Shown here one piece after another: positions 4,925 to 24,233 of a stretch of 32,797 nt of DNA. The notes below the pieces were generated by a model. That model saw only the letters and a list, made by a program, of their open reading frames with translations. It was not told where the DNA came from and did no database searches. Position 1 is the stretch's first letter; each line of letters begins with the position of its first letter. This DNA is from Carboxylicivirga sediminis (lineage in GTDB: Bacteria; Bacteroidota; Bacteroidia; Bacteroidales; Marinilabiliaceae). The stretch lies in the NCBI RefSeq assembly GCF_018156225.1, contig NZ_JAGTAR010000051.1, positions 1 through 32,797 of the forward strand, written 5' to 3'. Position numbers and translations under genes: made by a program.

Positions 4925-4989
4925 CGAAAGTAGGCTAGTCGCTTTTTTTAGATGTGCTGAAACGTTCGCAATAGGTGTGCTAATCGTAC
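4925..4989 (-). promoter_or_regulatory. Predicted promoter and HTCS operator (site 1) for the T9SS two-repeat protein
   Basis: On the minus strand TACTTTCG (4932-4925) resembles the Bacteroidota -7 box TAnnTTTG with one mismatch. Thirty bases further upstream is a bipartite site at 4963-4989 that reads on the plus strand CGTTCGCAATAGG, six bases, then AATCGTAC. It shares CGCAATAGG and AATCGT with the site before the SGBP gene. The half-site period here is 22 rather than 21. A second copy of the distal part (GTACAC-CGCCTTATT) follows at 5041-5056. Confidence 0.55.
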
Positions 4990-5040
4990 ACGCCTTATTG
5001 GTAACTTGCTCATAATTTGCCACAAATGATGTATACAATT

Positions 5041-5056
5041 GTACACTCGCCTTATT
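5041..5056. repeat. Second copy of a GTACAC(T)CGCCTTATT direct repeat
   Basis: GTACACGCCTTATT at 4986-4999 recurs at 5041-5056 with one inserted T, 55 bp apart. The first copy overlaps the distal half of operator site 1. The second sits next to the 10-bp palindrome TACAATTGTA (5034-5043). It may be an auxiliary regulator half-site; the function is inferred. Confidence 0.45.
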
Positions 5057-5110
5057 CTGCCTGTACCATCCACTTTTTGCCTGATGTAAGCATTCAACAA
5101 CCATAACAAC

Positions 5111-5139
5111 AAAAAAGCTGCCCTAAAAAGAGCAGCTTT
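5111..5139 (-). terminator. Rho-independent terminator after the sulfatase gene
   Basis: An 8-bp stem (AAAGCTGC / GCAGCTTT) with a 10-base A-rich loop lies 42 bp past the stop of the sulfatase gene ending at 5182. On the minus strand it runs into a TTTTTT tract (5116-5111). It separates the sulfatase unit from the next gene, which has its own promoter. Confidence 0.75.
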
Positions 5140-5181
5140 CAAACCATCATTACAGTTACAAATCAAACATACATGTCAGTA

Positions 5182-6726
5182 TTAAAATTCACTTGACTCA
5201 GGTAGATCATATTTTACGTGATCTTCTTTAATCTTTTCGTTCCATTGAAAAAAGCGTTGCTTCATCTGCTCTACCAATTCAGGATGGTCCACAGCCAGAT
5301 TATGTTCCTCAGAATAGTCATTGGTCAGATCATACAAGCCATATGAATCGGCACGACCATAATATCTCAATTTCCAGTTTTGATAGCGCACGGCCCAGCC
5401 TGTTTCATCGCCATAATAGGTTTTATCGTGTCGGGCCAAAGCGCCATTAGGGTCATCATAGGTGCGTGGCTTTCCTTTTAAATGAAAACCTGTCCAGAAC
5501 AACCATTCATGTGGGTTGCTGTCATCCTTGCCTAAAAGGTACGGCATAAGGTTTACACCATCTATCTCCGTATTTTCCGGTAAGGGCATATCGAGAGCAG
5601 CGTGCAGTGTTGGAAAGATATCCATGCCGCTAACCGTTTGATTGAACACCTTACCTTGTGGCAAATGCCCCGGCCAACTCAACACAAATGGCACCCTGAT
5701 ACCGCCTTCTTCCAGAATGTATTTATTCCCTTTGAGCGGCGTATTATCGGCATAAGTGCGCGGTGAACCCCCATTATCGGATATAAACACCACAATGGTA
5801 TTTTCATCCAATCCTTCGGCTTTCAGCTTAGCGGTGATGGTACCAATGGCATCATCCAACTTGTTTAGATGATAGAGGTAACGTTGGCGCCCTTGTGGCG
5901 TATGCGGCTTAACAGTATTGACATACCACTCCAGGTATTGGTCCCAATCACCGGTGCCCGGATCCCAGTCAGGCACCTTATCGATGCCCATCAGCTTCAG
6001 ATCCTCATCAGGTATCTGATGTGTGAACAGGTGAACCGCATTAAAAGAAACCATAAGGAAAAACGGATGATGCTTATACTCATCTATGTATTGAAGCGAT
6101 TTATCGAGGATAATATCCGTTGAATAACCCTCCATATCGACCTGTTTGTCATTCTCCCAGAAAGGACCAATGCCCAAGTGATTAGCCATTTTCTCAGTAA
6201 AGCCCTCACGATCGGCCGCCTTGTGACGCAGATAGTCCATCGTCCCACCTTCCTTACCAAAATAGTAGTCGAAGCCATGCGAGGTGGGGAACTCTGGTAC
6301 GCCGGGCCCCTGCACCGGACCGTAATGCGACTTACCCACCATGCCTGTTTGGTAGCCTTGTGCCTTTAATTGTTCAGCCAGGGTAATTTCACTATCAGGC
6401 AGTTGAGCACCAAAATTATACACTCCCCAACGTTGCTGTTGGCGGCCGGTTAGCATGGCCATGCGCGATGGACTACATACTGACATGGATACGTAAGCAT
6501 TGGTAAAACGTACACCTTTCTGAGCCAACTCATCGAGGTGAGGTGTATGTGCATCGCTTGCCCCACCATAGGCACTAAAATCACCGTAGCCCTGGTCGTC
6601 GGTGATGATGAACAGTACATTGGATTGTTGTTTGTTATGCGAGTTTGATGTGCCATGACTACATGCGCCTAACAGCGATAATGTTGCCCCAATCGTCATC
6701 AACACAGTATTCCGTAAAAGATTCAT
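5182..6726 (-). CDS. Family S1 sulfatase, lipoprotein
   Basis: A 514-residue S1 sulfatase with a lipoprotein signal peptide (LLGAC, Cys22). The metal-binding start ITDDQGYGD (about 41-49), the formylglycine motif CSPSRMAMLTG (Cys84) and a later SDNGG block are all present. The usual GKWH is GKSH here, keeping the Lys and His. The overall pattern resembles N-acetylgalactosamine-6-sulfatase or arylsulfatase A-like enzymes, so removal of a sulfate from GalNAc is plausible in this locus. The exact linkage (4-O or 6-O) cannot be read from the sequence. Activity needs conversion of Cys84 to formylglycine, and no maturase gene is in the window. The gene is a separate unit with its own promoter and operator upstream and terminators on both sides. 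Confidence 0.88.
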   Translation of the reverse strand: MNLLRNTVLMTIGATLSLLGACSHGTSNSHNKQQSNVLFIITDDQGYGDFSAYGGASDAHTPHLDELAQKGVRFTNAYVSMSVCSPSRMAMLTGRQQQRWGVYNFGAQLPDSEITLAEQLKAQGYQTGMVGKSHYGPVQGPGVPEFPTSHGFDYYFGKEGGTMDYLRHKAADREGFTEKMANHLGIGPFWENDKQVDMEGYSTDIILDKSLQYIDEYKHHPFFLMVSFNAVHLFTHQIPDEDLKLMGIDKVPDWDPGTGDWDQYLEWYVNTVKPHTPQGRQRYLYHLNKLDDAIGTITAKLKAEGLDENTIVVFISDNGGSPRTYADNTPLKGNKYILEEGGIRVPFVLSWPGHLPQGKVFNQTVSGMDIFPTLHAALDMPLPENTEIDGVNLMPYLLGKDDSNPHEWLFWTGFHLKGKPRTYDDPNGALARHDKTYYGDETGWAVRYQNWKLRYYGRADSYGLYDLTNDYSEEHNLAVDHPELVEQMKQRFFQWNEKIKEDHVKYDLPESSEF

Positions 6727-6750
6727 ATTCGTTGGTATTTAGTATTTGTT

Positions 6751-6815
6751 CAAAAATAAGGCTTGCACAAATGCTTATGTGACCAAATCATTCAGGATGC
6801 TTCCAAAATAGTTTC
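6751..6815 (-). promoter_or_regulatory. Predicted promoter and HTCS operator (site 4) for the sulfatase
   Basis: On the minus strand TATTTTTG (6758-6751) is a perfect match to the Bacteroidota -7 box, 25 bp before the start codon. Thirty bases upstream, at 6789-6815, the plus strand reads CATTCAGGATGC, then CCAAAATAGTTTC. It agrees with the site before the PL29-like gene at about 18 of 28 positions, and its position relative to the -7 box is identical. Confidence 0.5.
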
Positions 6816-6832
6816 TTCCCAATAAAAAGAAC

Positions 6833-6860
6833 AAAAAAAAGAGTGCCGCAAGGGCACTCT
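6833..6860 (-). terminator. Rho-independent terminator after susD
   Basis: An 8-bp stem (AGAGTGCC / GGCACTCT) with a five-base loop is followed on the minus strand by a run of T (A-tract at 6833-6840). It lies 26 bp past the susD stop and closes the SGBP-susC-susD unit. Confidence 0.85.
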
Positions 6861-6885
6861 CTTCAACAATTAAATCGTCTATAAA

Positions 6886-8538
6886 TTACCAATTGGGATG
6901 CTGGTCAAGTAACTTGTTGATGGTTATTTCCTGCAAAGGGTATGGTAATACCAGGTGCTTAGATTCATCGAAGTTTTCACCGGCTCTTAACAAATGTGTG
7001 TAGCCTGTATTTGATGGATTATAATCATCTGATGCTTCCGTTTGCATATTTAGCTCTTCAAGCGTCTGCCCTAAGATACCCCAGCGAATAAGGTCCTGTC
7101 GACGCACACCCTCGAAGCACAGCTCGCGCAAGCGCTCATCCTGTATTTCTTTGCGAAAAGAAACCTCATCCGACACACGGCTCTGATCAATATCACCTAA
7201 ACCGGCACGGTGTCTTACAGTATTAAGGTAAGCATAAGCATTAGCTGGCCCATTCAGTTCGTTTTCAGCTTCAGCGCGCATTAACAATACATCGGCATAT
7301 CTTAATAATGGGAAATTAATACCAGTAAAATTCTTATCGGGTGAAGCAATTGGTTCGAGTATCTCATACGACTCGTTTTCACCCGGTGTATCCACATCGT
7401 CCCAGTTAGTTGGCTCCCAACGGCGAAACTTACCAGGCCACCACTTCAACTCGTTGGTAATTCGCTTGAGTTCGTGCTTTTTCTTATCGTAGGTGTATGA
7501 AGCACAGTTCCAGTCGTATCGGGCATCACCGGTTGCATAGATGTTTTTCACCTTAATACTCAACTGCATAAACGCATAGGAGTATGGATAGCCCTCGCCA
7601 CCATATGTAAACTGAACACCATTCACATTACCATGACGGCCATGCTCGTTCAAGCCCTGATCTCTCAGATTTTTAAAGTTCACTTCAAACAAGGTTTCTT
7701 TTACATCGTGGATATTACCAATATAATTACGGAACACCTCATCGTAGTTATCCATCAGACCATGGAAACCATCTTCAATCACTGAGTCGCACTGTGCCAC
7801 TGCCTGCTCATACATAGCGGTATTCTGCAGCGGATAACCAGCCATAGTGAGGTACACCCTTGCCAATAAGCCATGGGCTGCCATTTTAGTAGCACGGCCG
7901 GTTTGTTTGTTCATTTCAGGATCCTGAACACGAGGCAGGTTCTCACTGGCAAAGGTTAAGTCTTCAACAATTACTTCGTACACCTTCTCAATGGATGAAG
8001 CTGCCACGTTATTGGCATCAATATCTTTAGATGGCTCTAAACGCAAAGGTACAGGACCCCACCAACGTACCAGGTCGAAATAATACAACGCTCTTAAGAA
8101 ACGTGCTTCTCCTAACACCCGGTTGAGTGTTACATCATCCAAATCTGGCGTATTGGGCACAGTTACTATGAACTTGTTAGCCGCATCAATACCGCGGTAC
8201 AGTGCATACCATGTTTGCTCTATATCGCGTGTGGCCGATGTATGACGATAAAGTGATACGGGCCAGCCTTCGTTGTAATGACGGCTATACAAAGCCTCAT
8301 CGGTACCAGCCTGAAAGTTGGATGGCAGATACGAACCATAGGTCTCGTCCTTGCCCAGGTAATTGTAGATACCCACAAGGCCCAATTGCACTTCTTTGGC
8401 ATCTTTATAGAAATTATCGCTATCCCAGCTGGTTTGCGGTTCCACATCCAGGAATTGGCTGCAGGCTGCTCCACCGAACATGATGGCAGCAACCACCGCT
8501 ATTTTTGATATCTTTTTAACTAATTGCATCATTTTCAC
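6886..8538 (-). CDS. susD-like: SusD/RagB-family glycan-binding outer-membrane lipoprotein
   Basis: A 550-residue SusD-family protein. The lipoprotein signal ends at Cys26 (GGAAC), followed by SQFLDVEPQTSW, typical of mature SusD proteins. The N-terminal TPR-rich part covers about 40-250. The C-terminal RagB/SusD signature RELCFEGVRRQDLIRWG is near 475-490, and the protein ends with the usual LPYPLQEITINKLLDQHPNW-type tail. SusD proteins sit as a lid on the SusC porin and bind oligosaccharides at the cell surface. It follows susC with a 9-bp gap and shares its operon. The ligand is inferred to be a glycosaminoglycan oligosaccharide from the neighbours, since SusD sequences do not themselves show specificity. 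Confidence 0.93.
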   Translation of the reverse strand: MKMMQLVKKISKIAVVAAIMFGGAACSQFLDVEPQTSWDSDNFYKDAKEVQLGLVGIYNYLGKDETYGSYLPSNFQAGTDEALYSRHYNEGWPVSLYRHTSATRDIEQTWYALYRGIDAANKFIVTVPNTPDLDDVTLNRVLGEARFLRALYYFDLVRWWGPVPLRLEPSKDIDANNVAASSIEKVYEVIVEDLTFASENLPRVQDPEMNKQTGRATKMAAHGLLARVYLTMAGYPLQNTAMYEQAVAQCDSVIEDGFHGLMDNYDEVFRNYIGNIHDVKETLFEVNFKNLRDQGLNEHGRHGNVNGVQFTYGGEGYPYSYAFMQLSIKVKNIYATGDARYDWNCASYTYDKKKHELKRITNELKWWPGKFRRWEPTNWDDVDTPGENESYEILEPIASPDKNFTGINFPLLRYADVLLMRAEAENELNGPANAYAYLNTVRHRAGLGDIDQSRVSDEVSFRKEIQDERLRELCFEGVRRQDLIRWGILGQTLEELNMQTEASDDYNPSNTGYTHLLRAGENFDESKHLVLPYPLQEITINKLLDQHPNW

Positions 8539-8547
8539 TTTTCCTGA

Positions 8548-11500
8548 TTAAAACTTAATTTCTAATCCACCCATTACAGTTGCACTCATCGGATAGGCTG
8601 AATAATCCAGACCTGGTGTTAGTGCGCCGAATTTCCCTACAGATACCTCAGGGTCAAATCCGCTGTAGTTGGTCCATGTGTACAGGTTTTGTCCGGCCAC
8701 ATAAATTCTACAAGCGCTTAAGCCTAATAAGTTGAGTGCTTTTTTACCTAATGAGTAGCCTAATGAAACGGTTTTCAGTCGCAGGTACGAACCATCTTCC
8801 ACAATGCGGTCTGACACATGGTTACCAGTTGGAGGTGCACCATATACGCCATCGAACCAAATGCCATGCATCTCATTTGATGGATTCTCAGGGGTCCAGC
8901 GATCAGCTACTGATGACAAGTAGTTGTAACCGGTTGTGTTACCTGGGTTTTCAAATTCTACACGGTTGGCATTTAAAATTTCATTGCCATAGCTCCACTG
9001 AAAGAACACCTGTAAATCGAAGTTCTTCACCTGGAAATCGTTAGTAAAACCACCAAAATGTTTTGGATGAGGATTACCAATAACTGCTCTATCCTTATCA
9101 TTGATGGTACCATCGCCATTTAAATCCTTGTACTTAATACTTCCCGGCGCTACATTACCACCATTATCAGGCAGACCCGGTTTTAGCACATATCTGCTTT
9201 CAGAGTTATCGTACACAAAATCATCCATTTGGTAAACGCCATCGTACTTCAAGCCATAGAACATACCTACCGGCTCATTAACCTTTGTGATGTACTGGTA
9301 CTCGTTATATTTAAAATACCAATCAGGATTAGTAAGCATAAAGTCTTGTCCATCGTTCAGGCCAATGGTTCTATTTTTGTTAAACGAAATATTGAACGAT
9401 GTTGACCATTTAAAATCACGCTTATCGATATTAACTGTGCTGATTGAGAATTCCAATCCCTCATTTTGTACCGCTCCAACATTTTGGAATACCTGGTTAT
9501 AACCCGAGCTTGGTGCCATTTCGGCATATAAAAGCAGGTCGGTGGTGTTTTTACGGTAATAATCAACCACACCCGAGATGCGGTTGTTCAGGAATCCGTA
9601 ATCAATACCTACGTTCATCTGCTTAGTGGTTTCCCACTTCAGGTCAGACGAGGCCAGGTTAGAATGATAGGCACCAGCGTAATAGATATTATCTAACACG
9701 TAACCGCTGGATGTGCTCGTCTCCATTTGTGAAAATGCAGCAAAATCGTTGATGCGGTTATTACCTGTAATACCATATCCGGCACGTAACTTAAGGTTAC
9801 TAAATACGTTCAGGTTGCGTACAAAGTTCTCCTCAATCAATCGCCATGCTGCTGCAAATGAAGGAAAGTAGCCCCATTTATTATCGCCTCTGAACTTAGA
9901 CGAACCATCGGCACGGAAGTTAGCTGTTAACAGGTAACGATCCTTCAAGCCATAGTTAAAGCTTCCGAAGAAAGAAGACATGGTATTCATGGTGGTGCCT
10001 GATTCAGGAATGGTTGGCTGTGTTCCCAGGTGTAACTTGTCTGTTCCGAAAATATCCACCGGCATGTTGGTGTTTTTAGCCCTGAAGTAGTCCGATTGTC
10101 TCTGCTGAGCTTCAAAACCACCTAAGGCAGTAACACTGTGAATGTATTTGAACTTTTTCTTCCAGGTCAAGGTATTGGATGTTGACAAAGTCTGGTAGCG
10201 TCGATCGGTTAAGGTACCATTGATGCCGTCAATACCACGTGTTCCCGAGAAGGTATCTTCCTTATAAAAAAGTGATTCCTGGCGGTTATCAACCTGGTAG
10301 GTGCCTGTTACACGCAGTCGTAAGCCTTTAATAATATCGTAGTTCAGGTAAAGATTACCTCTAATCACATCCTGACGTGTATAACGATCGGTGTTTTCCA
10401 ATGACTTCACCGGGTTAAAACGTAATTCATTCGGGTCGGCATCGTAATCAATACCGCCATCGCGTCCGTCGTCAACAATCGGACTAACCGGACGGAAAGT
10501 AACCGCCTCCTTAATCACACTGTGACGGTTATTCCCTGACACATCCTGACCTATACGCTTAATATAAGAGTAGTTAAGGTATCCTCCCATTTGCGCTTTT
10601 GAGTTAATACGGTGCGAAAACTTCAGGTTATTATTCATCTTCTGAAAGCCTGTGTTAAGCAGTGTACCTTCCTGATCGGTATAATCAGTTGACAAATAAA
10701 TAGTGGATGTTTTATTACCACCGTTTAATGAGAAGTTATAATTCTGCACCATGGCCTGACGGAAGATCTCATCCTGCCAGCTGGTAGCTGATTCACCGCG
10801 CTGGGCCAATGCTTCCTTTGTATAAAGCTCAGGATCCTGCCAGTGCGTGTTGAAACTTTCAATATAAGTATCTCCTTTATTGTAGGCTACTTCTTTTTCA
10901 TATTTCACATACTCATAGGGTGATAAAACTTCTAAACGCGATGGCACCCACTGCACACCCAAAGAAGTATTCATACTGATTTGGGTTTTACCGTCAGAAC
11001 GACCTTCTTTAGTAGTAATGATAATAACACCATTGGCACCACGTGAACCATAGATGGCCGTTGCCGAAGCATCCTTCAATACATCAAAATCCTTAATATC
11101 GTGTGAACTGATGCTTCCCGGATCAAAATCTTCCAAAGGAATACCATCTACCACATACAAGGGCGAGTTATCACCAGTGATGGAGTTACCACCACGGATA
11201 ACAATGTTTAAGCCCTCGCCGGGTGTACCGTCGGCGGCTGATACCTGCACCCCGGCCACACGACCTGCCAAGGCCTGGTCGTAGTTGGTAACAGGACTCT
11301 TCACAATATCAGATGGCTTTACCTGTGCTACAGCGCCGGTCAGGTCCTTCTTCTTAACTACATTATAACCAACAGCTACCACTTCATCCAACAGCTCCAC
11401 TTCAGGAAACAAGATAACGTCTATTTCCTTGCGCTTATTAATCACCTCTTCGTGGTCTTTATACCCGATAAATGAATACACCAGCGTACCATTCTGATCA

Positions 11501-11688: not shown

Positions 11689-11707
11689 GATTTGTGTCTT
11701 ATTGAAC

Positions 11708-11733
11708 CAGGATACTCACGGATGAGCATCCTG
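11708..11733 (-). promoter_or_regulatory. Intercistronic hairpin between the SGBP gene and susC
   Basis: A near-perfect inverted repeat (CAGGAT-A-CTCA / TGAG-C-ATCCTG; 10 pairs, one mismatch, loop CGGA) sits in the 52-bp gap. There is no U-tract on the minus strand, so it does not look like a terminator. It could be an mRNA processing or stability element that sets different levels of SGBP and SusC; that role is inferred. Confidence 0.5.
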
Positions 11734-11740
11734 ATTTATA

Positions 11741-13664: not shown

Positions 13665-13728
13665 CAAATGTATCTGCAATACAACCATTATATGTGTAAA
13701 ATCTTCCGCAATAGGGTTTAAATCGTTC
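13665..13728 (-). promoter_or_regulatory. Predicted promoter and HTCS operator (site 2) for the SGBP-susC-susD operon
   Basis: On the minus strand TACATTTG (13672-13665) is a perfect -7 box, about 40 bp before the SGBP start. Thirty bases upstream, at 13703-13728, the plus strand reads CTTCCGCAATAGG, five bases, then AATCGTTC. CGCAATAGG starts exactly 35 bp from the edge of the -7 box, as at site 1. No clear -33 TTG is present, as expected for an activator-dependent promoter. Confidence 0.6.
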
Positions 13729-13775: not shown

Positions 13776-16700
13776 TTAATCAATTATTTGAAAGGAACAC
13801 TGTTGTGTCAATCCATCCTTACAGGCGAGTTTAACAATGGTATTTCCTTCTTCAGTAATGATTATTGATTCAACTTTATTATTGCATGCCCACTTTCCTT
13901 TGAGTTCTACTTCCAGGTAGGTCGTTTTGCTTTCAGCCGGACGCCATGGTCGCGAATAAATGCTTCGCTCAACGCGCTTGCCATCTTTGTAGATTTCATC
14001 GGCAGGTCCTTCGTACAAGGCTAAATCAGGATTGGTAATATTTAATTCCAGTTCCTTGTCCGACTCTTTGGTTAAAGCAATGCATGGTAGGTTGGTATTT
14101 TTAATGATCCCGGTTGAATTATCTTTCGCTGCTTCAAAGAAAACATAGCCGGTTTCATTGGTGGCCGTGTTATAGACCATGTGACACTTCTCAGTGTGTT
14201 GCAGCACCTCATAAGCAGGTTTGTTTGCTACTGTTTGCATGCGTTGCACATCGGCACCAGGAATGACGCAGTAGTGGTAACTGGCAGCCTGTGGCGCTTT
14301 CCCATGTTGTAACACCGCTGCAGCAAACTCCCCTTTGGTTGGCTTCTCACTACTTTCATCCCTTGAATGCTGCATTCCCTGATGGAAATAGACTGCTCCC
14401 GATGGCAGGTAATAACCATTTCCTTTATTATCAATCATCCACATATTCACTGCCGCATAACTTGATTCCTGTTCCCCGGTGCCGGCCTGCTGACCGTTAA
14501 TCAGCACCTCATCATCCTTTTTACCTATATGGTTTTGAAACAAAATGGTTTCGGTTGGATGCTCAGAATTGGTATTTTCAATACCAGAGCCCAGGCAAAC
14601 AATCTGATCATCGAAGAAAAACCACGACTTGCGAGCTCGCAGGCTACCCTGGTATTTATCGTGCTCATGCAAGATAAAGGCATAAACACCATTCTGATTA
14701 TTGGCGTGCACACCACCGGCAAATGCCTCATCAGAAAACAGCATTTCTTCATAGCCCGAAAACTGGTCTACATTCAGAATATTGGCCCGTAAATCATCAA
14801 TTGGCAGATTAATAACTGTGGTTCCGGGAAAACGGTTCCAGTCCCAGCCTTCCTGCACAAAACCACTGCCTTTATTATCGATTGGCTGACCGCCTCCCAT
14901 AATTTGCAATTGCCCGTGTGCGAGGTAACGACCATATAGGTTGGCCCCCAGGTAATGCTCAGCTGCCCACAAGTAGCGAGAATGCCCTCGTACAGAGGCA
15001 GTCCATTCGGCACACCTGTGCACCGATGATGATGCATAAGGCATGGTAATGTGTCCATTAGGTGTTGCCTCGGCTGAAATACCCTTTGCCAGAAACTCAT
15101 CTTTGAAAGAGCTTTTCTTTTTCTCCGGTATCAGGCGCATATAAGCCGCTGCCAACTCTGTATCAATGGCCGAGCTGCCATCAGGCGCTCCAGCCTTAGC
15201 CAGAATGGCAAAATGGTCGGGGTGTAAAGCCCCTTTTCCTTCAGGATGACGCCCGGACATAGAAATGGGCCATTGCGTGTGGTTGCAATAGAAGCGCATG
15301 GTTAACAAAGCCTTCTTGATGGTTTCGTGCCCCAATTGGGATACCTGAAAAGGAGTACCACTCATGAAATAGACCATACGAACGGCCCCATTCAAACCTC
15401 CTGTAGCATAGGCCGGATAATGATTAGCATGGTGGTAAGCTGAGCCATCCACCTTAAAAGCATCGTTAAGGCCAGGGGCAGGCAATAAACCATTATCTAT
15501 CCAGCGGGCAAAACATGACAGGTATTGAGCCTTCTCGGGTGTATCCTCCATAATCAGGATACTGGCCAAACGCCCCATCACCTGTGTATTAAAGGCATCC
15601 ATATCCATTCCGTTTATAACTGGAGCTTTGAAGGTTTCGCCAATGGCAGCAAACCACTGTAAACCATCAATAGCCGCCTGTAGTTGTCCTTCTTCACGCA
15701 GCACATCGCGCATGATAAACAAGGCCCGGTAATAGCTTCGCCAATTGTAGCCATAGTGGTGGATGGTACCTAAACCACTGCCAAAGGCAATACCCTGATC
15801 CAGCATGTGATCGTACATATCCATGTACATCTTTCTCAGGTTTTCCTTCAGGCCAGCCTCTTCGCAGTTGGCGTAGGCTGTGGCCACTTTCAACATTAAA
15901 TCAAAATAGCTTCTGATATCCTGCTTATTCTCGCGGTATAATTTGGCAATGCTATGATCGGCCAAAGGAATATATAACTCGGCATTGCGGCCAAACCAAA
16001 CTGGCAGCCCATTTATTTGTCCTTTGCGACGATTAATCTGGTAGCGGGCCACTTGTTTGTACAAGTTATCCACAGTCGCTGCATTCACCTTCTGGTTTCG
16101 TAAAATATCTGCTTCAAATCGCTGCTCAATCAGCCTGAAGGCGGCCAGCTGATCCTTTGAAAGTTCTGCTGGTGCCGGCAGGTCAGGCTGCATATGACTA
16201 GCCTCTTCCTGAATTAACCAGTGGCTCTCGGTACCTTTATTAACAAATGGCACTTGCCTGTCGGGCGTATGATGGCGGCTATCAATATTGATACACAAAA
16301 ACATGTGATCGAAAAAGAGCTGCCCCTTAGAAATTGACTGCGGACTTTCAATGCGCAAACGGTTCATAGTGGCAACAGGCAATCCTTCCATATCACGCTC
16401 AAAAGCTACCCATGCTGCGCGCCACCCTTTAAAGTTGAGATGAAATTTAAAGCTGCAGTTATCGGTTTCATCGGTGCCAAACACAAAAGTGGCTTCATCA
16501 TCCACAGGCGTTTCATTGTAAACCCATACAGCAAATGATGGAATGGATTTATCTTCACTTTCGGGATTGAAAGGCACAAAACCAATGGCTTGGTTTAAGG
16601 TAATAGCACCTGTTTTTTGCCAATCCCATCTCAAGGATTTTTGACCATGCTTGTAGTGCACATCTGAGGTTGATAACTTATGCCCCTTATCAAGGGTCCA

Positions 16701-16841
16701 TTGTTTTTTATTGACGCTTTCAAACGACCAGAGCTGCTCGTGCTGAAACTCCTGGCCGAATGCACTGAAGCTACTGCCTAAAACCAAGGCCGCTATTAGA
16801 AAGAGGGTACTAACCCTTTTAATCTGATTTTTTTTCATCAT
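13776..16841 (-). CDS. Polysaccharide lyase family 8 (chondroitin ABC lyase type), periplasmic
   Basis: A 1021-residue paralogue of the PL8 at 164-3316 with the same domain order: signal peptide (to about 30), jelly-roll (about 33-190), alpha/alpha catalytic domain (about 220-600) and beta-sandwich domains to the end. It lacks a T9SS sorting domain and ends CSFQIID, so I infer a periplasmic enzyme working on imported oligosaccharides. Candidate catalytic residues are His361/His362 (HHYGYN), His471 and Tyr478 (in HHANHYPAY) and Arg531 (SGRHP), at the same 7- and 53-residue spacing as in the paralogue. Where the paralogue has GAGEP, this one has GGGQP (Gln652), a possible change of a catalytic Glu. 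It is followed by a 151-bp gap holding the next promoter, and preceded by a terminator and its own operator. The second codon is also ATG (16838). Confidence 0.88.
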   Translation of the reverse strand: MMKKNQIKRVSTLFLIAALVLGSSFSAFGQEFQHEQLWSFESVNKKQWTLDKGHKLSTSDVHYKHGQKSLRWDWQKTGAITLNQAIGFVPFNPESEDKSIPSFAVWVYNETPVDDEATFVFGTDETDNCSFKFHLNFKGWRAAWVAFERDMEGLPVATMNRLRIESPQSISKGQLFFDHMFLCINIDSRHHTPDRQVPFVNKGTESHWLIQEEASHMQPDLPAPAELSKDQLAAFRLIEQRFEADILRNQKVNAATVDNLYKQVARYQINRRKGQINGLPVWFGRNAELYIPLADHSIAKLYRENKQDIRSYFDLMLKVATAYANCEEAGLKENLRKMYMDMYDHMLDQGIAFGSGLGTIHHYGYNWRSYYRALFIMRDVLREEGQLQAAIDGLQWFAAIGETFKAPVINGMDMDAFNTQVMGRLASILIMEDTPEKAQYLSCFARWIDNGLLPAPGLNDAFKVDGSAYHHANHYPAYATGGLNGAVRMVYFMSGTPFQVSQLGHETIKKALLTMRFYCNHTQWPISMSGRHPEGKGALHPDHFAILAKAGAPDGSSAIDTELAAAYMRLIPEKKKSSFKDEFLAKGISAEATPNGHITMPYASSSVHRCAEWTASVRGHSRYLWAAEHYLGANLYGRYLAHGQLQIMGGGQPIDNKGSGFVQEGWDWNRFPGTTVINLPIDDLRANILNVDQFSGYEEMLFSDEAFAGGVHANNQNGVYAFILHEHDKYQGSLRARKSWFFFDDQIVCLGSGIENTNSEHPTETILFQNHIGKKDDEVLINGQQAGTGEQESSYAAVNMWMIDNKGNGYYLPSGAVYFHQGMQHSRDESSEKPTKGEFAAAVLQHGKAPQAASYHYCVIPGADVQRMQTVANKPAYEVLQHTEKCHMVYNTATNETGYVFFEAAKDNSTGIIKNTNLPCIALTKESDKELELNITNPDLALYEGPADEIYKDGKRVERSIYSRPWRPAESKTTYLEVELKGKWACNNKVESIIITEEGNTIVKLACKDGLTQQCSFQIID

Positions 16842-16864: not shown

Positions 16865-16929
16865 TAAATGTACCCCATCATCAGGCCTGGCCATGGACAG
16901 AAACGTACAAACAAGTGCCAAATTCATTC
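16865..16929 (-). promoter_or_regulatory. Predicted promoter and HTCS operator (site 5) for the periplasmic PL8
   Basis: On the minus strand TACATTTA (16872-16865) differs from TAnnTTTG at one position. The site at 16904-16929 reads on the plus strand CGTACAAACAAGTGCC, then AAATTCATTC. It matches the site before the PL29-like gene at about 17 of 26 positions. The gap to the -7 box is 31 bp here instead of 30. Confidence 0.45.
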
Positions 16930-16971
16930 AGTTCACCTCACACCAATCAGATTAGTTTGGTTATTCAGTGA

Positions 16972-17008
16972 CAAAAATAAAAAAGGTCGCCAAATAACCT
17001 TGGCGACC
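16972..17008 (-). terminator. Rho-independent terminator after the CBM96-like gene
   Basis: A 9-bp perfect stem (GGTCGCCAA / TTGGCGACC, 16985-16993 with 17000-17008) and six-base loop are followed on the minus strand by TTTTTTATTTTTG. It lies 23 bp past the stop of the gene ending at 17032 and closes the PL29-like/CBM96-like unit. Confidence 0.88.
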
Positions 17009-17031
17009 AGTTAATATTATTGTTGTTCAGC

Positions 17032-17652: not shown

Positions 17653-17664
17653 AATATCTTGATT

Positions 17665-19221
17665 TTAGTTGTTTTTAATTTCTTTAATCCAATTTGGCAG
17701 TTCGCCTAAGCGCAGCTCCAGTTGCGCTTCGTATAAGGACTCTGGATTGACTGGCGTACCCAAGGACTCAAGCACTTTAACCTGATCTTCTTTAAAAGTG
17801 GTACCGGCACCATGGAAACCCACCACATAAGGAGGAATGATTTTCCAGAACCAGGTTGTTGACGACCAGAATTCAAAATCCACCTCAGGCTCGCCTAACT
17901 CCTTATAATTCCACAACACCAAATGCTCCATGTGGTTAGGCAAATTCTGACGGGCACCTCCGCCACGACCAATAAAGAAACCACCTTCGACACAATCAAA
18001 CAATGTAGCACGTGGTTGCGAAGCGTGTGTTTCAAAGCTGGTGTCTTCATTATGCTTCACCCGCCAAAGCACCGTACCTAAAGTAGGCCCCGTAACTCCG
18101 GGGGCATGCCACTGTGATGAGCTGTCGTTAATTTTACCAATCAATACCCTGGTGGAGGCATTAGAACTGATGGAACTATGACCCGGCGTACCTGTTACCT
18201 CACAATTTAGCGCCGATACATTTGAGCAAAGGACGAAATTGGCTGCCCTGTTCACGTCTGTGAAACGACAATTACGCACCCAACTGTTGGCCAAACGCTG
18301 AAACTTCAGCAACGAATAGCCACCATCGTGTATATCGTCCTTATGATGAACAAACTCCTCGTGCCAGTTACCTGCAAACGCTATATTCTCAACCCCTACT
18401 TCTTCAAAATGGGCATAACGATAGACCTGCCACTCATGCTTTTTATCGATATCTCGCAACAAGGGTTCTTTCAGAGTAATTTCTTTACCCTTCACATCCA
18501 TTACCTGATGATAAGCATTAACATACACGCCTTTATTGAGTATGGATGTCCACTTTTCATCGGCATGACAACCACACATCTCCTTCTCAATCAAATCAGG
18601 TGCATTGTTCTTTACTCTCAGTACAATCCAGTCTCCGGCCTTTATACCTGCCGTATTACGCACCTTTATAGTGTGAGTACCACGCCCAGCATCGGCCGCT
18701 ATTTCAGTCAGCAAATCTTCACTACCTCCACCTACAAACTGAATCATATAGGGCGTTGTCCATAGCTTCTTAGGGTCTTTAGCCGGCAAATGGTTCTTCA
18801 TAAACAATTCAGTACCATCCTCGCCTGAGCCACTGCCCCGAAATACAATATTATTCCCTTTTACAATGATTGGTGTTGTATCATCCGTATCTTCGTTTAT
18901 CAGGAATCGCCCTTTGGGAAAGAAAACAAGGCCCGACTTGTTCTTTACAGCCGCATCAATGGCCATTTGAATAGCATTTTTATCAGACTTTCCATCGTTG
19001 GGTACCGCTCCAAAATGCGTTACATCAAATACTTTGTAGTCAACAGTTGGTATGGCCTTTTCGCCGTGATGATAGCCGGCATAGGAGAAATCCGGCAACT
19101 CGGCTGTCTTACCATGTTTAGAACAACTTTTAAAGTTCTCCCATAACTGACTTTTCTGTGCACGGAGAGCACCTGAAAACAATATGGCCAGAACTGCTAG
19201 TAATAATGTCTTGTTATACAT
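17665..19221 (-). CDS. DUF4955 beta-helix protein, candidate PL29-like glycosaminoglycan lyase
   Basis: A 518-residue exported protein: signal peptide to about Ala21, a pectate-lyase-3-type opening (about 62-115, FDVTHFGAVPNDGKSDKNAI and VFFPKGRF), a right-handed beta-helix core, and a C-terminal segment (about 370-512, ending in PESLYEAQLELRLGELPNWI) typical of DUF4955 proteins. From memory, a Bacteroides thetaiotaomicron chondroitin-locus protein of this type founded lyase family PL29. With two PL8 genes, GH88 and sulfatases alongside, a lyase acting on chondroitin, dermatan or hyaluronan is a reasonable inference. The catalytic residues are not known to me, and a non-catalytic or different beta-helix enzyme is possible. 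It starts a two-gene unit with the CBM96-like gene and has its own operator. Confidence 0.65.
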   Translation of the reverse strand: MYNKTLLLAVLAILFSGALRAQKSQLWENFKSCSKHGKTAELPDFSYAGYHHGEKAIPTVDYKVFDVTHFGAVPNDGKSDKNAIQMAIDAAVKNKSGLVFFPKGRFLINEDTDDTTPIIVKGNNIVFRGSGSGEDGTELFMKNHLPAKDPKKLWTTPYMIQFVGGGSEDLLTEIAADAGRGTHTIKVRNTAGIKAGDWIVLRVKNNAPDLIEKEMCGCHADEKWTSILNKGVYVNAYHQVMDVKGKEITLKEPLLRDIDKKHEWQVYRYAHFEEVGVENIAFAGNWHEEFVHHKDDIHDGGYSLLKFQRLANSWVRNCRFTDVNRAANFVLCSNVSALNCEVTGTPGHSSISSNASTRVLIGKINDSSSQWHAPGVTGPTLGTVLWRVKHNEDTSFETHASQPRATLFDCVEGGFFIGRGGGARQNLPNHMEHLVLWNYKELGEPEVDFEFWSSTTWFWKIIPPYVVGFHGAGTTFKEDQVKVLESLGTPVNPESLYEAQLELRLGELPNWIKEIKNN

Positions 19222-19245
19222 AAATCTTTGGATTCAATTTCTGCT

Positions 19246-19309
19246 GCAAAATAGCTTTACCTTAATCAAACGATGTGAAAAATCGTTCATTTAGCTGCTA
19301 AAATCTTTC
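19246..19309 (-). promoter_or_regulatory. Predicted promoter and HTCS operator (site 3) for the PL29-like unit
   Basis: The -7 box is weak: TATTTTGC on the minus strand (19253-19246). Thirty bases upstream, at 19284-19309, the plus strand reads CGTTCATTTAGCTGC, then TAAAATCTTTC. It carries a clear CGTTC half-site and a second (TC-TTTC) one 21 bp on. The spacing is the same as at sites 1, 2 and 4, although the -7 box itself is poor. Confidence 0.45.
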
Positions 19310-19344
19310 ATAAACGACAGATATTGTTGCTGCCGGGCCATCCC

Positions 19345-20049
19345 TTAATGCAGCTTTGTAACTCTAAACCCGCTAATTAGCTGGTGAGACTTATAAGTAC
19401 GTAGTCCAAACCATCCAGATGTATACGGATCAGGATCGTCAATATCAAATATCTCCTTTCCATCACGGATGTATTGAACATGCCCCTTGTTGGCTATCAA
19501 CTGCACCGTGTATTTTAGATTGGGTGTGAGTAATACATCTGGCGATGAGAGATCATGCCCCTCCTCCAATGGGCGGATGTCAGTGCCATTATAGCGGCGG
19601 AAACGTGTCCGGGTATTATCGTGACCACCACAGCCAACATAGTAAAGGTTCAGCCTGTCGTACTGGCGAAATTGCCCCCTTCGCTGACTTTCTGCATGAA
19701 AAAGATTGCTTTTATCGATTGGGTCCGTCGCCATCCAAAATACGTTCATGTCTGATACCCTGTCATACGACCCTTGTTCATCAATCATGGTCACCTGGTA
19801 TTCAATCATTATAGGCCCTTCCAGTTTGCTTTTAAACCAGACAGTGCAACCTGAAGAATCGAGAATCTCAATTCCTTTATCGGTAAAAAGCACATCCCCA
19901 CCAGGCTGCTGCTCCACCACCCACTGTGCAGGGTCGAACAACACTTCATCGCCATAAAGTTCATTATCACTGCGGCTGTTACATTGCCACAACAGCACAC
20001 CCAATAAACAGCATACGATGCTAAAACGCATTACATTATTCTTCTTCAT
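19345..20049 (-). CDS. DUF6250-like (concanavalin-type jelly-roll) lipoprotein coupled to the HTCS
   Basis: A 234-residue protein with a lipoprotein-like signal (LLWQC, Cys23; Gln at -1 is unusual, so anchoring is probable but not certain). The single domain has the FWMATDP, YYVGCGG and TRTRFRRYNG blocks that I associate with the DUF1961/DUF6250 families of jelly-roll proteins linked to polysaccharide degradation. Its start overlaps the end of the HTCS gene by 14 bp, so translation is probably coupled. This is an odd partner for a sensor. It might bind or process the glycan in the periplasm, either as an enzyme or as a ligand-presenting accessory. No catalytic residues can be assigned. Confidence 0.65.
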   Translation of the reverse strand: MKKNNVMRFSIVCCLLGVLLWQCNSRSDNELYGDEVLFDPAQWVVEQQPGGDVLFTDKGIEILDSSGCTVWFKSKLEGPIMIEYQVTMIDEQGSYDRVSDMNVFWMATDPIDKSNLFHAESQRRGQFRQYDRLNLYYVGCGGHDNTRTRFRRYNGTDIRPLEEGHDLSSPDVLLTPNLKYTVQLIANKGHVQYIRDGKEIFDIDDPDPYTSGWFGLRTYKSHQLISGFRVTKLH

Positions 20050-23000
20050 TACTTAATTTATCACTTTCTGATTCTTCACTACCGCCTTGTTTAATACCAT
20101 ATTTTGAAGGTGACACCCCAAAATGCTCGCGAAAACAACGACTGAAATACCGGGGCGTACTAAAACCAACCGCATAGGCTATTTCAGACACATTCATCTC
20201 CGGGTTGCCCATTAACAACTCCGCCGACTTCTTCAACCGGGTCGACAAGATAAAATCGTTGGGTGTTTGCCCGGTGACACCTTTAATTTTGGCATATAAA
20301 CGTGTTCGACCCAAGCCCATCTCACGGGCAAAGTCGTTTACATCAAACTCGGTATTGTCCATGTGTTTCTCAATAATATCACGCGCCTGCTCCATCATCT
20401 TCCTGTCAAGGGTGTTGGTAGCCACTTCTTTAATTTCTGCCTGAGGGTCCTGCTTGAATTTCTGCTGCATAATGGCCCTGTTCTGCAACAAATTCTTCAC
20501 CCGTGTGCGCAGTAAACGAATATTATAGGGCTTAGTCAGGTAATCATCGGCCCCTGTTTCAATGCCTTCTATTTTGTATTCCAGGGCTGTACGTGCCGTC
20601 AGCAACACCACCGGAATGTGGCTGGTTTGCACGTTACGTTTTATTTTGGCACACATTTGTGTACCCGACATATTTGGCATCATCACATCCGATATAATCA
20701 GATCAGGCTGATGCTCCAATGCCGCCTTCAGTCCCTCGCTGCCATCTTCAGCCTCAATTAGCTTATAACTCGCTCTGAAGATATCGACCAACAGGTGACG
20801 CGCCTCGGCATTATCTTCCACCAACAAGATAGTCGGCGCATTCTCAGGCAATTCGGCAGTCTCGTCCACCTCTTCTATATCATGCGGCATTATCACCGGT
20901 GGCTCAATGGTCTGAAGTATCTCTTCAGCAGGTGTTAATTGCTCTTCGCTGTAGTGCTTATTCCCTTTCTGAAGCCTCACTGTAAATGAAGTACCTTCCC
21001 CTTCCTGACTGTTGACCAATATCTTCCCATCATGCTCGGCAATAATCCCTTTGCATAAGGCCAGACCAATTCCACTGCCCTGACCACTTGTTTTTCCGGT
21101 CACGCGATCGATCTGGTAAAACCGATCGAAGATTTTTGATACTTTATCGGGTGGCATACCCGGCCCATTATCCGAAATGGTTATATCCACATATCCGGGC
21201 TGCTCAATTACCTCAATCACCACCTTGCCAATTTGCTCATCCACCACCTTAAATGCATTGGATATCAAATTATAAAACACCTTCTCCATCTGCGACTTAT
21301 CAAACCAAAGAGCCAGCGACTCGGGTGGTGTCTTAAAGCTGTAATCAACCTGATGATAATGGGCATATTCAACAAATGACTGGTAAATTTCATCAACAAA
21401 TTCACCCAGTCTAAACTCAGCAACCTTCAGTGTCAAAAAGCCTTGCTCCAGCTTTCTGAAGTCAAGCAATTCAGTAATCAGGTTATTCAATCGGATGGCA
21501 TTATTATTAATGGTCAGCAACTTCCGGTAGTTACGTGCCGATGTTTTGGTATCCTCTAATATAGACTCAAGCGTACCGGTAATAAGTGTCAGAGGTGTAC
21601 GAAATTCATGTGAGATGTTGGTAAAGAATCTGAGTTTCGACTGATTAAGCTCTTTAATCTGTTCTTTTTCACGCTGTTCAGCCTTCAGGTTATCCACCAA
21701 TCGTACCTTAGACAGGTATATCTGGTTGAGCCACCATATGATAGCCAGCAACACCAGGAAATAAAAGATATAAGCATACCATGTTTGATAAACAGGTGGA
21801 TTGACAGTAATGTGCAACAGCTTTTCGTCAACCACACTGTTTTCAATACCGCTAAGTCCCCGTATCTTAAGAGTGTAGGTACCTGCATCCAGGTTGGTGT
21901 AGGTCACAGATGTTTGCTCACCGGCATCCACCCAGTCCTCATTAAATCCCTCTAACTGATACTGGTAGCGACTTTGGTTGGTGGATATATAATTACAGGC
22001 CGAATAGTGCAGGGTAAAGATATTTTGATCGGGTTCTAATACAATATGATCGGTAAATGGCAAATCATCTTCCAGAATGCCGGAATTATCGCCCGGCACT
22101 ACTTTTTTATTATTCACCCACAGGGCCGACATCAGCAGGTTGTAGTTGGTCGATTTCTTCAGGATATCCTCTTCTTTAAAGGAAATTAAACCATTGATTC
22201 CTCCGACAAATACTTCGCCATCGCTGGTTACATAAAGAGAACCTTCATTGAGTTCCTCCAGCGGGAAACCATTGTGCCGGTCATAGTTATAGAAGCGGTT
22301 ATTCTCAATATCAAAACGGCTCAATCCTTTTCCTGTGGCTATCCAAAGATTCCCGTAGCGCGACTCCTGAATACCATACACAAAATCGCTGGGTAACTGA
22401 TGGGTGGCACGTGAATAATTGACAAAGTGATCCTTTTCGCGGATATACTGATTGAGTCCGCCACCAAAGGTCCCTATCCAAAGGCGGAACTGATGATCTT
22501 CAAAAATAGTGTAAATAGTATTACTGCTAATAGCATGTAAATCATTTGCTTTATATTGATACCTGTTTAGCTTGGCACTTTGAATATCATAGGCACAAAG
22601 ACCATTCTTTTCAGTCCCTATCCATAATTTACCAAAACTATCTTCGAACAGACAATAGATAACCTTACCAATATAAGCTCGTGTTTCGGCATCATCGATA
22701 AAATGCGAAAACTGCTGAGTGACAGGACTAAATCGGATAACCCCTTCGTGAGTACCCAGTAAATAGTCGCCATGAAACGGAATGATATCGGTGATAACCC
22801 CTGATGGCAGTGATGTCGTATCTTCCGGGTTATGGAGGAAGTTCTTGAACTTGCCACTTTCTAAATCAAGGATATTAAATCCCCCCATGTGTGTTCCGAT
22901 AAATAAGGTGTTTTTGTCTACCTTTAATAATGACTTCACATTGTTATGCGATAAACCGGCCTTTCCTTCACGGTAGTTATAATGTTTGAAGGTCTTGCTT

Positions 23001-24100
23001 TTACGGTTAAAATAATCCAGTCCGCCTCCTTCAGTAGCAATCCATAAGTTATTCTGTTCGTCTTCAATCATCTTACCCACCACACGGTAGCCAATTCCTT
23101 CGGGATGATCGGCTCTGACGGCATATTGCTGGTAAATCTGAAAATCAGGGTTATAATAACTGATAGCTCCAAAATAGGTGCCTACCCACATGGTCCCCTG
23201 ATGGTCGCGCATCACACTGTACACACTATTGTGCGATAAGGTTTTACTACCCTCATCGGTCTGCTTGTAATTAGTAATTGTATGATTTCGGCTATCAATA
23301 ATACTGAGGCCTAAAAAAGTACCTACCCACACATTACCTTTAGAATCCTCATTAATATCTCTGATAATATCATTGACAAGCGAACTATCCTCGTCATGAT
23401 GCTTAAAATGCTTAATGATCTGGTGATGCTGATTAAGCAGGTACACGCCCTGCCCGTTTGTACCTACCCATATGTGCTTGCGTGAATCGGTAAATACGGT
23501 GTTTATGGTATTATCAAGGATATGAGCCGTAACATTTTTCTTCGGGTTATATTTATAGAGTCCTTTATTACTGCAGATCCATACCATACCGGCGTTATCA
23601 AGGTAAAGCTCATTTATGGGGGTATTCTCATTGAATACATCCGACTTGAGCTTAAAGGCATTCAGTTTCCGATCCAGTTCAAACAAACCTCTGTTGGTAC
23701 CAACGAGTAAATTACCCTTAAAAGGCAATATGGATAATATACCATCGAATGGAAACTGCTGAAATTCAAGCGTAGTAATATCGAGGCGGGACACACCAGC
23801 GTAGGTGCTGGCCCAAATATAATTTCCGTCCCGCTTCAAATCCCTGACATTATGCCCCAGCAATGAGTTGGTATTACCCCTCACCGGCCTGAATGTTTTT
23901 ATTTGTGCCCCATCATACACATTCAAGCCATCGCGTGTACCAATCCATATCCGCCCTATGCTATCCTGCAGCATGGTAGTAACCGTTACCTGCGATAGTC
24001 CATCCTTCAGACCCAGGTAGTCAAAAGTTACCTTTTGGGCATTGGATGCTAATGCCAGCAGCAACATAAATGCCATCACTATCGTTTTCTTCATCCTCAT
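20036..24100 (-). CDS. Hybrid two-component system sensor/response regulator (HTCS)
   Basis: A 1354-residue one-piece sensor and regulator. Order: signal peptide (to about 21); periplasmic sensor of 14 or so reg_prop propeller blades (about 25-650, repeated IWIGT or LWIGT motifs); Y_Y_Y domain (about 690-768); one membrane helix (about 774-792); histidine kinase with His831 (SHEFRTPL) and ATPase boxes (NLISNAF, SDNGPGMPP, GSGIGLALCK); receiver domain (about 1088-1205) with Asp1138 and Lys1190; and a C-terminal AraC-type DNA-binding domain (about 1235-1336, two helix-turn-helix units). Family members sense periplasmic oligosaccharides and activate their PUL. All key phosphotransfer residues are present. 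The conserved sites upstream of the neighbouring units are its probable targets, and one lies upstream of its own gene. Confidence 0.95.
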   Translation of the reverse strand: MRMKKTIVMAFMLLLALASNAQKVTFDYLGLKDGLSQVTVTTMLQDSIGRIWIGTRDGLNVYDGAQIKTFRPVRGNTNSLLGHNVRDLKRDGNYIWASTYAGVSRLDITTLEFQQFPFDGILSILPFKGNLLVGTNRGLFELDRKLNAFKLKSDVFNENTPINELYLDNAGMVWICSNKGLYKYNPKKNVTAHILDNTINTVFTDSRKHIWVGTNGQGVYLLNQHHQIIKHFKHHDEDSSLVNDIIRDINEDSKGNVWVGTFLGLSIIDSRNHTITNYKQTDEGSKTLSHNSVYSVMRDHQGTMWVGTYFGAISYYNPDFQIYQQYAVRADHPEGIGYRVVGKMIEDEQNNLWIATEGGGLDYFNRKSKTFKHYNYREGKAGLSHNNVKSLLKVDKNTLFIGTHMGGFNILDLESGKFKNFLHNPEDTTSLPSGVITDIIPFHGDYLLGTHEGVIRFSPVTQQFSHFIDDAETRAYIGKVIYCLFEDSFGKLWIGTEKNGLCAYDIQSAKLNRYQYKANDLHAISSNTIYTIFEDHQFRLWIGTFGGGLNQYIREKDHFVNYSRATHQLPSDFVYGIQESRYGNLWIATGKGLSRFDIENNRFYNYDRHNGFPLEELNEGSLYVTSDGEVFVGGINGLISFKEEDILKKSTNYNLLMSALWVNNKKVVPGDNSGILEDDLPFTDHIVLEPDQNIFTLHYSACNYISTNQSRYQYQLEGFNEDWVDAGEQTSVTYTNLDAGTYTLKIRGLSGIENSVVDEKLLHITVNPPVYQTWYAYIFYFLVLLAIIWWLNQIYLSKVRLVDNLKAEQREKEQIKELNQSKLRFFTNISHEFRTPLTLITGTLESILEDTKTSARNYRKLLTINNNAIRLNNLITELLDFRKLEQGFLTLKVAEFRLGEFVDEIYQSFVEYAHYHQVDYSFKTPPESLALWFDKSQMEKVFYNLISNAFKVVDEQIGKVVIEVIEQPGYVDITISDNGPGMPPDKVSKIFDRFYQIDRVTGKTSGQGSGIGLALCKGIIAEHDGKILVNSQEGEGTSFTVRLQKGNKHYSEEQLTPAEEILQTIEPPVIMPHDIEEVDETAELPENAPTILLVEDNAEARHLLVDIFRASYKLIEAEDGSEGLKAALEHQPDLIISDVMMPNMSGTQMCAKIKRNVQTSHIPVVLLTARTALEYKIEGIETGADDYLTKPYNIRLLRTRVKNLLQNRAIMQQKFKQDPQAEIKEVATNTLDRKMMEQARDIIEKHMDNTEFDVNDFAREMGLGRTRLYAKIKGVTGQTPNDFILSTRLKKSAELLMGNPEMNVSEIAYAVGFSTPRYFSRCFREHFGVSPSKYGIKQGGSEESESDKLSNEEE

Positions 24101-24153
24101 AATCCCCTCAATTAATTAAAATGAAACACAGCAAAAACCTATCTATAACAAGG

Positions 24154-24233
24154 CAAATCTAATACATTTACAAAGGAACTTCACTCACAAAAATATTCAT
24201 CCAAAATAGTTCGCATTACGTACAATATCGTAC
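24154..24233 (-). promoter_or_regulatory. HTCS promoter candidates and operator site 6
   Basis: On the minus strand TAGATTTG (24161-24154) is a perfect -7 box 53 bp before the HTCS start. A second, weaker box TTCCTTTG lies at 24178-24171. The site at 24208-24233 reads on the plus strand AGTTCGCATTACGTACAATA, then TCGTAC, with GTTC and GTAC half-sites 21 bp apart. It lies 29-30 bp upstream of the weaker box, in the same orientation as sites 1-5. Within it CGTACAATATCGTACG (24219-24234) is a 14-of-16 imperfect palindrome. It may make the regulator autoregulated or act on the divergent GH88 operon. Confidence 0.5.

Follow-up and report, generated by a model that had tools for sequence, protein, structure and literature searches.

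Direct-repeat operators of hybrid two-component systems (HTCSs) are known from Bacteroides. The pertinent passages of Ravcheev et al. 2013 predict such operators, averaging 21 bp, for 16 HTCSs of Bacteroides thetaiotaomicron, and HTCS_Hya (BT3334) is listed there for chondroitin sulfate/hyaluronan (PMC3878776). In electrophoretic mobility shift assays (EMSA) excerpted from two further reports, HTCS fragments shift promoters that carry predicted sites of this type (PMC5061871, PMC11253607). Here we analyse a contig of Carboxylicivirga sediminis (NZ_JAGTAR010000051.1, 32,797 nucleotides, hereafter the window), which is one entire contig and represents 0.6% of a 5.8 Mb genome. It encodes a polysaccharide utilization locus (PUL) in which six copies of a bipartite direct repeat precede transcription units and are very probably operators of the HTCS of the same locus.

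The closest described systems are the Bacteroides HTCS operators, above all those of HTCS_Hya and HTCS_Hep (BT4663), in which, according to the same passages, a corresponding two-site arrangement with a direct repeat averaging 21 bp precedes PUL operons and the HTCS is of the AraC type (PMC3878776). The likeness is one of architecture, and the host here is a Carboxylicivirga relative. A second parallel is provided by the arabinan HTCS BT0366, a fragment of which is described as shifting, in EMSA, a target promoter as well as the BT0366-BT0367 intergenic region, and which promotes its own transcription (PMC5061871). This recalls the predicted autoregulatory site of the window HTCS, although BT0366 belongs to another PUL and responds to another glycan. 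The passages retrieved from the open-licence literature contain no description of the present operator or of a fixed spacing between an HTCS operator and the -7 box. Outside the Bacteroidota, the araI1-I2 site of Escherichia coli AraC has two direct half-sites about 21 bp apart, with the downstream one against the core promoter. The window operator resembles it in the half-site distance and in the position of its downstream half, whereas AraC is a one-component arabinose sensor acting at sigma-70 promoters and the window encodes a membrane HTCS, predicted to be gated by phosphorylation, with Bacteroidota-type promoters. The kind of operator is already known, and what is new here is another example with a well-resolved operator-promoter spacing.

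The shared element is real. All six sites proposed in the initial annotation exist, are intergenic and carry the direct repeat, each in the orientation of the gene downstream (minus strand; Table 1). Read on the gene strand, the element approximates GWACRATTT-N12/13-GAACRATTT, followed after 25-27 nt by a TAnnTTTG-like -7 box, and the half-sites, taken as 9-mers, are GWACGATTT-like. The repeat period is 21 at five of the six sites and 22 at 4959-4989. The period of 21-22 bp given originally stands, but the bounds 6789-6815 do not, the register of that site being corrected to 6785-6814 with a period of 21. The original wording of the motif as CGTTC-N16-CGTTC captures the presence of a repeat but describes it poorly. 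With up to two mismatches this literal pattern is weakly enriched (23 matches in the window versus 13.8 expected, standard deviation 3.6; 1 of 100 shuffles reaches 23), and it was rejected, as the sites at 4963-4989 and 6789-6815 are absent among the 23 matches. The sequence CGCAATAGG, said to be common to the sites before the surface glycan-binding protein (SGBP) and type IX secretion system (T9SS) genes, is indeed present at both, in the spacer directly after the first 9-mer, and is found again before SGBP in relatives.

An unsupervised de novo search for a tied direct repeat of 9-mers was performed on seven PUL upstream regions, with periods of 12-32 left free. The best period was 21 (score 120.7), with period 22 as the runner-up (100.4). 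None of 200 dinucleotide shuffles run at equal settings reached 120.7 (mean 94.1, standard deviation 3.4, maximum 104.4); a first shuffle control, with fewer periods and seeds than the observed run, gave a mean of 90.6 and a maximum of 105.9. The 21-bp fit returns the sites of the initial annotation in five of the seven regions, and the 22-bp fit places the sixth at 4959-4989; the site assigned to the GH88 region is spurious. A genome-wide scan with consensus words allowing 3 mismatches proved too blunt (22 matches versus 26 for the reversed control), and 4 of the 22 matches, including 3 of the best 6, fell inside the window.

An HTCS at about 62% identity or more, together with the surrounding PUL, is present in seven genomes of the genus, the window's included; that of the sister genome, Carboxylicivirga mesophila, is 99% identical. 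The orthologous PULs were scanned against 100 shuffles per region, and a second scan, whose training set included window sites, accepted box distances of 25-27 nt and no others. This comparison of related PULs, named as a check in the initial annotation, found the operator before the HTCS gene in 7/7 loci (six in the first scan, and G010, where the start codon was mis-set, in the second) and before SGBP, or before a short gene in its place ahead of SusC (G002, G004), again in 7/7. A counterpart of the PL8 operator lies at the same place in all seven loci, reached by at most 2 of 100 shuffles in four of them, and the DUF4955 operator is found in six, G004 being doubtful. In aligned HTCS upstream regions, conservation is highest at the half-sites and the box, and the period is nearly constant across sites while the spacer letters vary. 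The element also stays with its genes through rearrangements. The strongest single point for an operator that follows genes is a natural experiment involving DUF6250. This gene has no operator of its own in the three genomes where it directly follows the HTCS gene (G000, G007, G004), and has its own operator and box in all four where it lies elsewhere in the opposite orientation (G009, G002, G010, G011). In the window the two genes are probably co-transcribed, because they overlap.

At three sites, 26 nt separate the second 9-mer, counted from its end, and the -7 box; the gap is 27 nt at one site and 25 nt at two, the boxes of these two being TTCCTTTG at the HTCS gene and a TATTTTG box that is one base short and has two mismatches as an 8-mer. 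TAnnTTTG with at most one mismatch thus occurs 25-27 nt from the operator at five of the six sites. Among 2000 shuffles, 2 equalled the four of the six boxes that have no more than one mismatch and lie in two neighbouring spacings, and 11 equalled the three boxes that share a single spacing. The gap of 30 or 31 bp reported earlier holds in substance, 26 nt here being the former 30 counted from a 5-mer. The HTCS region has a perfect TAGATTTG further downstream (42 nt), yet the relatives keep the box at 25 nt. A TTTG -33 element 19-21 nt before the box was found at none of 41 sites; as fewer than one would be expected by chance, this is an absence and not a depletion. The -33 element likewise could not be identified in Flavobacterium johnsoniae, according to the relevant part of the report (PMC7366714).

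A sequence-only profile was then trained on 28 sites drawn from five further genomes of the genus, excluding the window and sister (G007) sites and one G011 site across a stretch boundary. Within the window the six sites take the first six ranks (E 8e-8 to 0.0092), each on the minus strand, and a plus-strand match inside susC follows closely as the seventh (E 0.012). The genome scans scored 150 first-look candidates each, which for the genome of the window means 150 of 4434. On that basis window sites occupy the first three ranks in the genome and five of the first seven, and matches with E <0.09 occur only in the window PUL. A match at C11:104860 (E 0.1), whose adjacent genes, judged from translations only, have no evident PUL link, was taken as chance. 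Among 14 genomes of the genus, the best E is <=2.2e-4 in the seven with an HTCS ortholog and 0.007 to 0.13 in the seven without, five of the former having supplied training sites so that only G000 and G007 are independent. Outside the genus, all eight genomes with an ortholog (44-73% identity) and 10 of the 49 without were sampled. The best E is 2.3e-6 to 0.03 in the former, with a match on the HTCS contig in five of eight; three of the 10 controls have matches (0.014 to 0.022) and seven have none at 0.05. Ten of the 22 matches in other genera were followed, and nine precede genes for DUF5017, DUF4955, HTCS, SGBP-like proteins (2), sulfatases (2) and PL8 lyases (2). Within the genus, sites beyond the aligned units were also found in G009 before chondroitinase B at the PUL edge (by the ortholog scan, then used in training), in G010 before a sulfatase beside chondroitinase B on another contig, and in G011 before a PL8 lyase 28 kb from a paralogous HTCS, on a contig other than that of the closest HTCS ortholog. 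Eight weaker matches in relatives were examined. Four were set aside, the next same-strand gene lying about 400 nt or more away, and four precede an AraC-type regulator, a GH3, a Pfam-less protein and an outer-membrane barrel, with no glycosaminoglycan link; the weaker matches would so represent chance or other regulators.

Agreement between the two halves peaks at the exact repeat period (0.42 versus <=0.35 at shifts of 1 to 4), an agreement partly built in, because a tied model of the first nine columns had been used to pick the sites. The half-site letters are loose, with about 42% identity over 13 inner columns. Three matches with profile scores above 14 that were judged non-promoter (G002 35807, G002 33341, G004 13395) were left out of this comparison and of the -33 count, as were intragenic matches except for one G007 match with a mis-set start codon.

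The regulator is a single protein with a periplasmic Reg_prop/Y_Y_Y sensor, HisKA, HATPase and receiver (REC) domains and an AraC-type helix-turn-helix (HTH) domain, and is therefore an HTCS; its H-box is NISHEFRTPL. The S/CHIP contact motif in the receiver has the consensus form TSHIP, with the histidine at residue 1161. The SHIP motif is described, in the section of the source that treats it, as marking HTCSs in which the receiver restrains the DNA-binding domain until phosphorylation occurs (PMC11253607). The HTH recognition regions, RTRLYxKIKG and TPRYFSRCFREHFG, hardly vary among the seven orthologs, and seven aligned paralogs from the same genome have other residues there. The structure of a two-component sensor, PDB 4a2l, matches the protein with E 2.5e-107; we take it to be the HTCS BT4663. 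A 279-residue hybrid two-component fragment, PDB 12aw, matches residues 1088-1341, which span the receiver and DNA-binding domain (E 1e-60), and should be useful for modelling the operator complex.

The best reading, already advanced in the initial annotation, is that an AraC-type dimer of the local HTCS binds the 21-bp direct repeat. It is supported by co-occurrence, conservation and architecture, and the binding itself is what we infer. We put at about 0.9 the probability that the six sites are operators of the HTCS at 20036-24100 and that it would activate transcription by binding them, with binding, phosphorylation gating, activation and ligand all predicted. A breakdown product of a chondroitin/dermatan-type glycan would bind the periplasmic propeller, and the kinase would phosphorylate the receiver, freeing the AraC-type domain from its inhibitory contact. 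Two monomers might then occupy adjacent positions on one face of the DNA along the 21-22 bp repeat, each with one HTH on GWACRATT and the other on a looser following stretch (CCTATTGC at two sites). With 25-27 nt between the end of the downstream half-site and the -7 box, bound protein would lie over the -33 position; the downstream half and the stretch after it would cover the -33 region and could recruit RNA polymerase directly, as in class II activation. One sensor would in this way turn on SGBP-SusC-SusD, the PL8 lyase, DUF4955-CBM96, the sulfatase, the T9SS/DUF5017 protein and its own gene with DUF6250.

The generality of this element was examined in the same genome, which has at least 12 other HTCS-like genes. 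When 12 of these loci went through the same search, eight had 21 or 22 as the best period between 14 and 30; shuffled loci gave one of these periods 12% of the time, and none of 25 replicates had more than 5 of 12. The two periods had been chosen after the window was seen. Only three loci, C89, C47 and C43b, beat all 40 shuffles in score (periods 18-24, the observed runs having slightly more seeds than the shuffles). C47 is best at period 18, C89 looks palindromic, and C43b is convincing by eye. In a motif-free phasing of 33 TAnnTTTG boxes from the 12 loci, period 21 ties with 32 as the highest, with a small effect. At the C43b locus (G000:C43:70993-90137), several units, the HTCS gene of that locus included, are preceded by an almost identical repeat, GAACCATTT-N13-GAACGATTT, and cross-recognition between the two HTCSs is possible. 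The locus of a 38%-identical HTCS, G006:C140, has six related sites with an A-tract in every spacer, which suggests DNA bending between the half-sites.

That last but one locus bears on the most durable alternative, in which the repeats are bound by another regulator, be it an AraC-family protein encoded elsewhere, a paralogous HTCS or a SusR-like protein. The number of further HTCS-like genes leaves room for it, and the C43b repeat is so similar that recognition could overlap; however, the C43b DNA-binding domain is merely 36% identical, the best genome matches lie in the window PUL, a site precedes the HTCS gene itself in 7/7 loci, and sites track the HTCS ortholog across genera, with partly overlapping scores. 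SusR motifs, moreover, are given in the passage concerned as 67 or 77 bp apart (PMC3878776). We regard another regulator as unlikely. Still less probable is a repressor site at which the HTCS would block transcription without glycan. The HTCS BT2391 is reported as a repressor in the part of the source that deals with it (PMC11253607), but its contact motif is non-consensus whereas the window HTCS has the consensus SHIP, and the site lies upstream of the -7 box and not over it. The absence of a TTTG -33 element at all 41 sites fits activator-dependent promoters, but also chance expectation. That promoter duplication or shared base composition produced the repeats, with no binding protein, is barely credible: the upstream regions are AT-rich and the half letters loose, but dinucleotide shuffles never reach the score, conservation peaks at the half-sites and box, and the period is nearly fixed while the spacer letters vary.

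Several observations weigh against the six sites being operators of one HTCS that serves the whole PUL. The T9SS-gene site (4959-4989) is barely above background in the window (rank 6, 11.9 bits versus 11.5 for the spurious seventh match) and is not among the 27 genome-wide profile matches. The second half of the PL8 site is divergent, and the PL8 sites of relatives are weak when taken singly, above all in three loci, where 9, 11 and 20 of 100 shuffles do as well. Genomes that carry the ortholog and genomes that lack it have partly overlapping scores (0.03 in G048 versus 0.014-0.022 in controls), and no profile match was found on the HTCS contig in G047, G048 and G051. Of the followed matches in other genera, one precedes an unrelated ABM-domain gene, and one PL8 and one sulfatase gene start more than 200 nt from the site. 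For nine of the 12 further HTCS loci, at least one of 40 shuffles scores as high as the real sequence. Finally, one HTCS with this element leaves part of the PUL unexplained, because the PL8 (164-3316)-kdgK unit has no operator by ortholog scan or window profile and the GH88 operon has no complete one (full model score 5.5, matched by 15 of 100 shuffles). The original claim that most but not all units carry the site, with PL8-kdgK lacking it, was right, and the GH88 operon can be added with at most a half-site. This half-site lies 50 nt before a conserved TATTTTTG-like box in 7/7 aligned loci, with no second half-site seen by eye. Because there is a half-site only, and the site at 24204-24233 faces the HTCS gene, the sulfatase arm formed by the GH88 operon may be under different control. 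PL8-kdgK is likely transcribed by read-through from the preceding DUF5017 unit and perhaps attenuated. A GC-rich hairpin lies in the stretch 3317-3399, between the DUF5017 gene and PL8-kdgK.

Pfam scans of the window identified two PL8 lyases, a DUF5017/T9SS-tail protein, a sulfatase, SusD, SusC, an SGBP (BT4661-like), CBM96, a DUF4955/pectate-lyase-like protein, DUF6250, the HTCS and a divergent GH88-sulfatase-sulfatase-CBM9 operon. With PL8 lyases, GH88, sulfatases, SusCD and SGBP, the gene set of a glycosaminoglycan PUL is present, and the predicted substrate is of the chondroitin type. The PL8 lyase at 13776-16841 matches the solved chondroitinase 2q1f (E 8.7e-288). At the left edge, an incomplete minus-strand gene that begins at about 139 has, by eye and with no family search, a KdgK-like start. 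Terminator-like hairpins, which are no commoner than in shuffles, suggest separate transcripts for several PUL units.

Table 1. Coordinates of the predicted operators, promoter boxes and associated features in the window.
Feature	Position	Strand	Evidence
Predicted operator of the HTCS gene (autoregulatory), GTACGATAT-N12-GAACTATTT	24204..24233	-	Top profile match in window and genome, training without window; kept in 7/7 orthologous loci
Predicted -7 box TTCCTTTG, HTCS promoter, 25 nt past operator	24171..24178	-	Kept in all 7 aligned loci
Predicted operator before DUF4955/pectate-lyase-like - CBM96 operon, GAAAGATTT-N12-GAACGATTT	19280..19309	-	De novo fit, ortholog scan, profile (window and genome)
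-7 box region CTATTTTG (TATTTTG, one base short of TAnnTTTG), DUF4955 unit	19247..19254	-	Phasing test
Predicted operator before PL8 lyase 13776-16841, GAATGAATT-N12-GTACGTTTC, letters divergent	16900..16929	-	De novo fit, ortholog scan, profile
Predicted -7 box TACATTTA, PL8 unit, 27 nt past operator	16865..16872	-	Phasing test
Predicted operator before SGBP-SusC-SusD operon, GAACGATTT-N12-GGAAGATTT	13699..13728	-	De novo fit, ortholog scan, profile
Predicted -7 box TACATTTG, SGBP operon, 26 nt past operator	13665..13672	-	Phasing test
Predicted operator before sulfatase 5182-6726, AAACTATTT-N12-GAATGATTT	6785..6814	-	De novo fit, ortholog scan, profile
Predicted -7 box TATTTTTG, sulfatase unit, 26 nt past operator	6751..6758	-	Phasing test
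Predicted operator before DUF5017/T9SS-tail protein, GTACGATTA-N13-GAACGTTTC, period 22	4959..4989	-	Ortholog scan; window profile rank 6
Predicted -7 box TACTTTCG, DUF5017/T9SS unit, 26 nt past operator	4925..4932	-	Phasing test
Candidate half-operator GTACAATTT, divergent GH88-sulfatase-sulfatase-CBM9 operon	24293..24301	+	GWACRATNN in 7/7 aligned loci
Conserved -7-like box TATTTTTG, GH88 operon	24352..24359	+	Alignment
HTCS: propeller sensor, Y_Y_Y, HisKA, HATPase, REC with SHIP motif, AraC-type HTH	20036..24100	-	Domains; signal peptide and transmembrane segment by eye
DUF6250 gene, overlaps HTCS end by 14 bases	19345..20049	-	Own operator in four relatives
Terminator-like hairpin between SusD and sulfatase unit	6836..6864	-	Pattern match only
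Terminator-like hairpin between sulfatase and DUF5017 unit	5113..5140	-	Pattern match only
Terminator-like hairpin between CBM96 and PL8 unit	16985..17008	-	Pattern match only

The predicted operator of a chondroitin-type HTCS outside Bacteroides is now fixed precisely enough for genome searches, and scans of relatives with it picked up genes for chondroitinase B, PL8, SGBP and sulfatase that lie on other contigs or beyond the aligned units. The operator-to--7 geometry offers a basis for testing HTCS activation at promoters without a -33 element, and would be useful for glycan-responsive reporters in laboratory Bacteroidota. It appears slightly better than an even bet that HTCS promoters in general are a rigid cassette, made of a half-site, a 21-22 bp period, a second half-site, 25-27 nt and TAnnTTTG with no -33 element, which could be inserted before any gene. 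If true, such a cassette would explain how PUL genes move yet stay in their regulon, and would make HTCS regulons, unlinked genes included, predictable from sequence across Bacteroidota.

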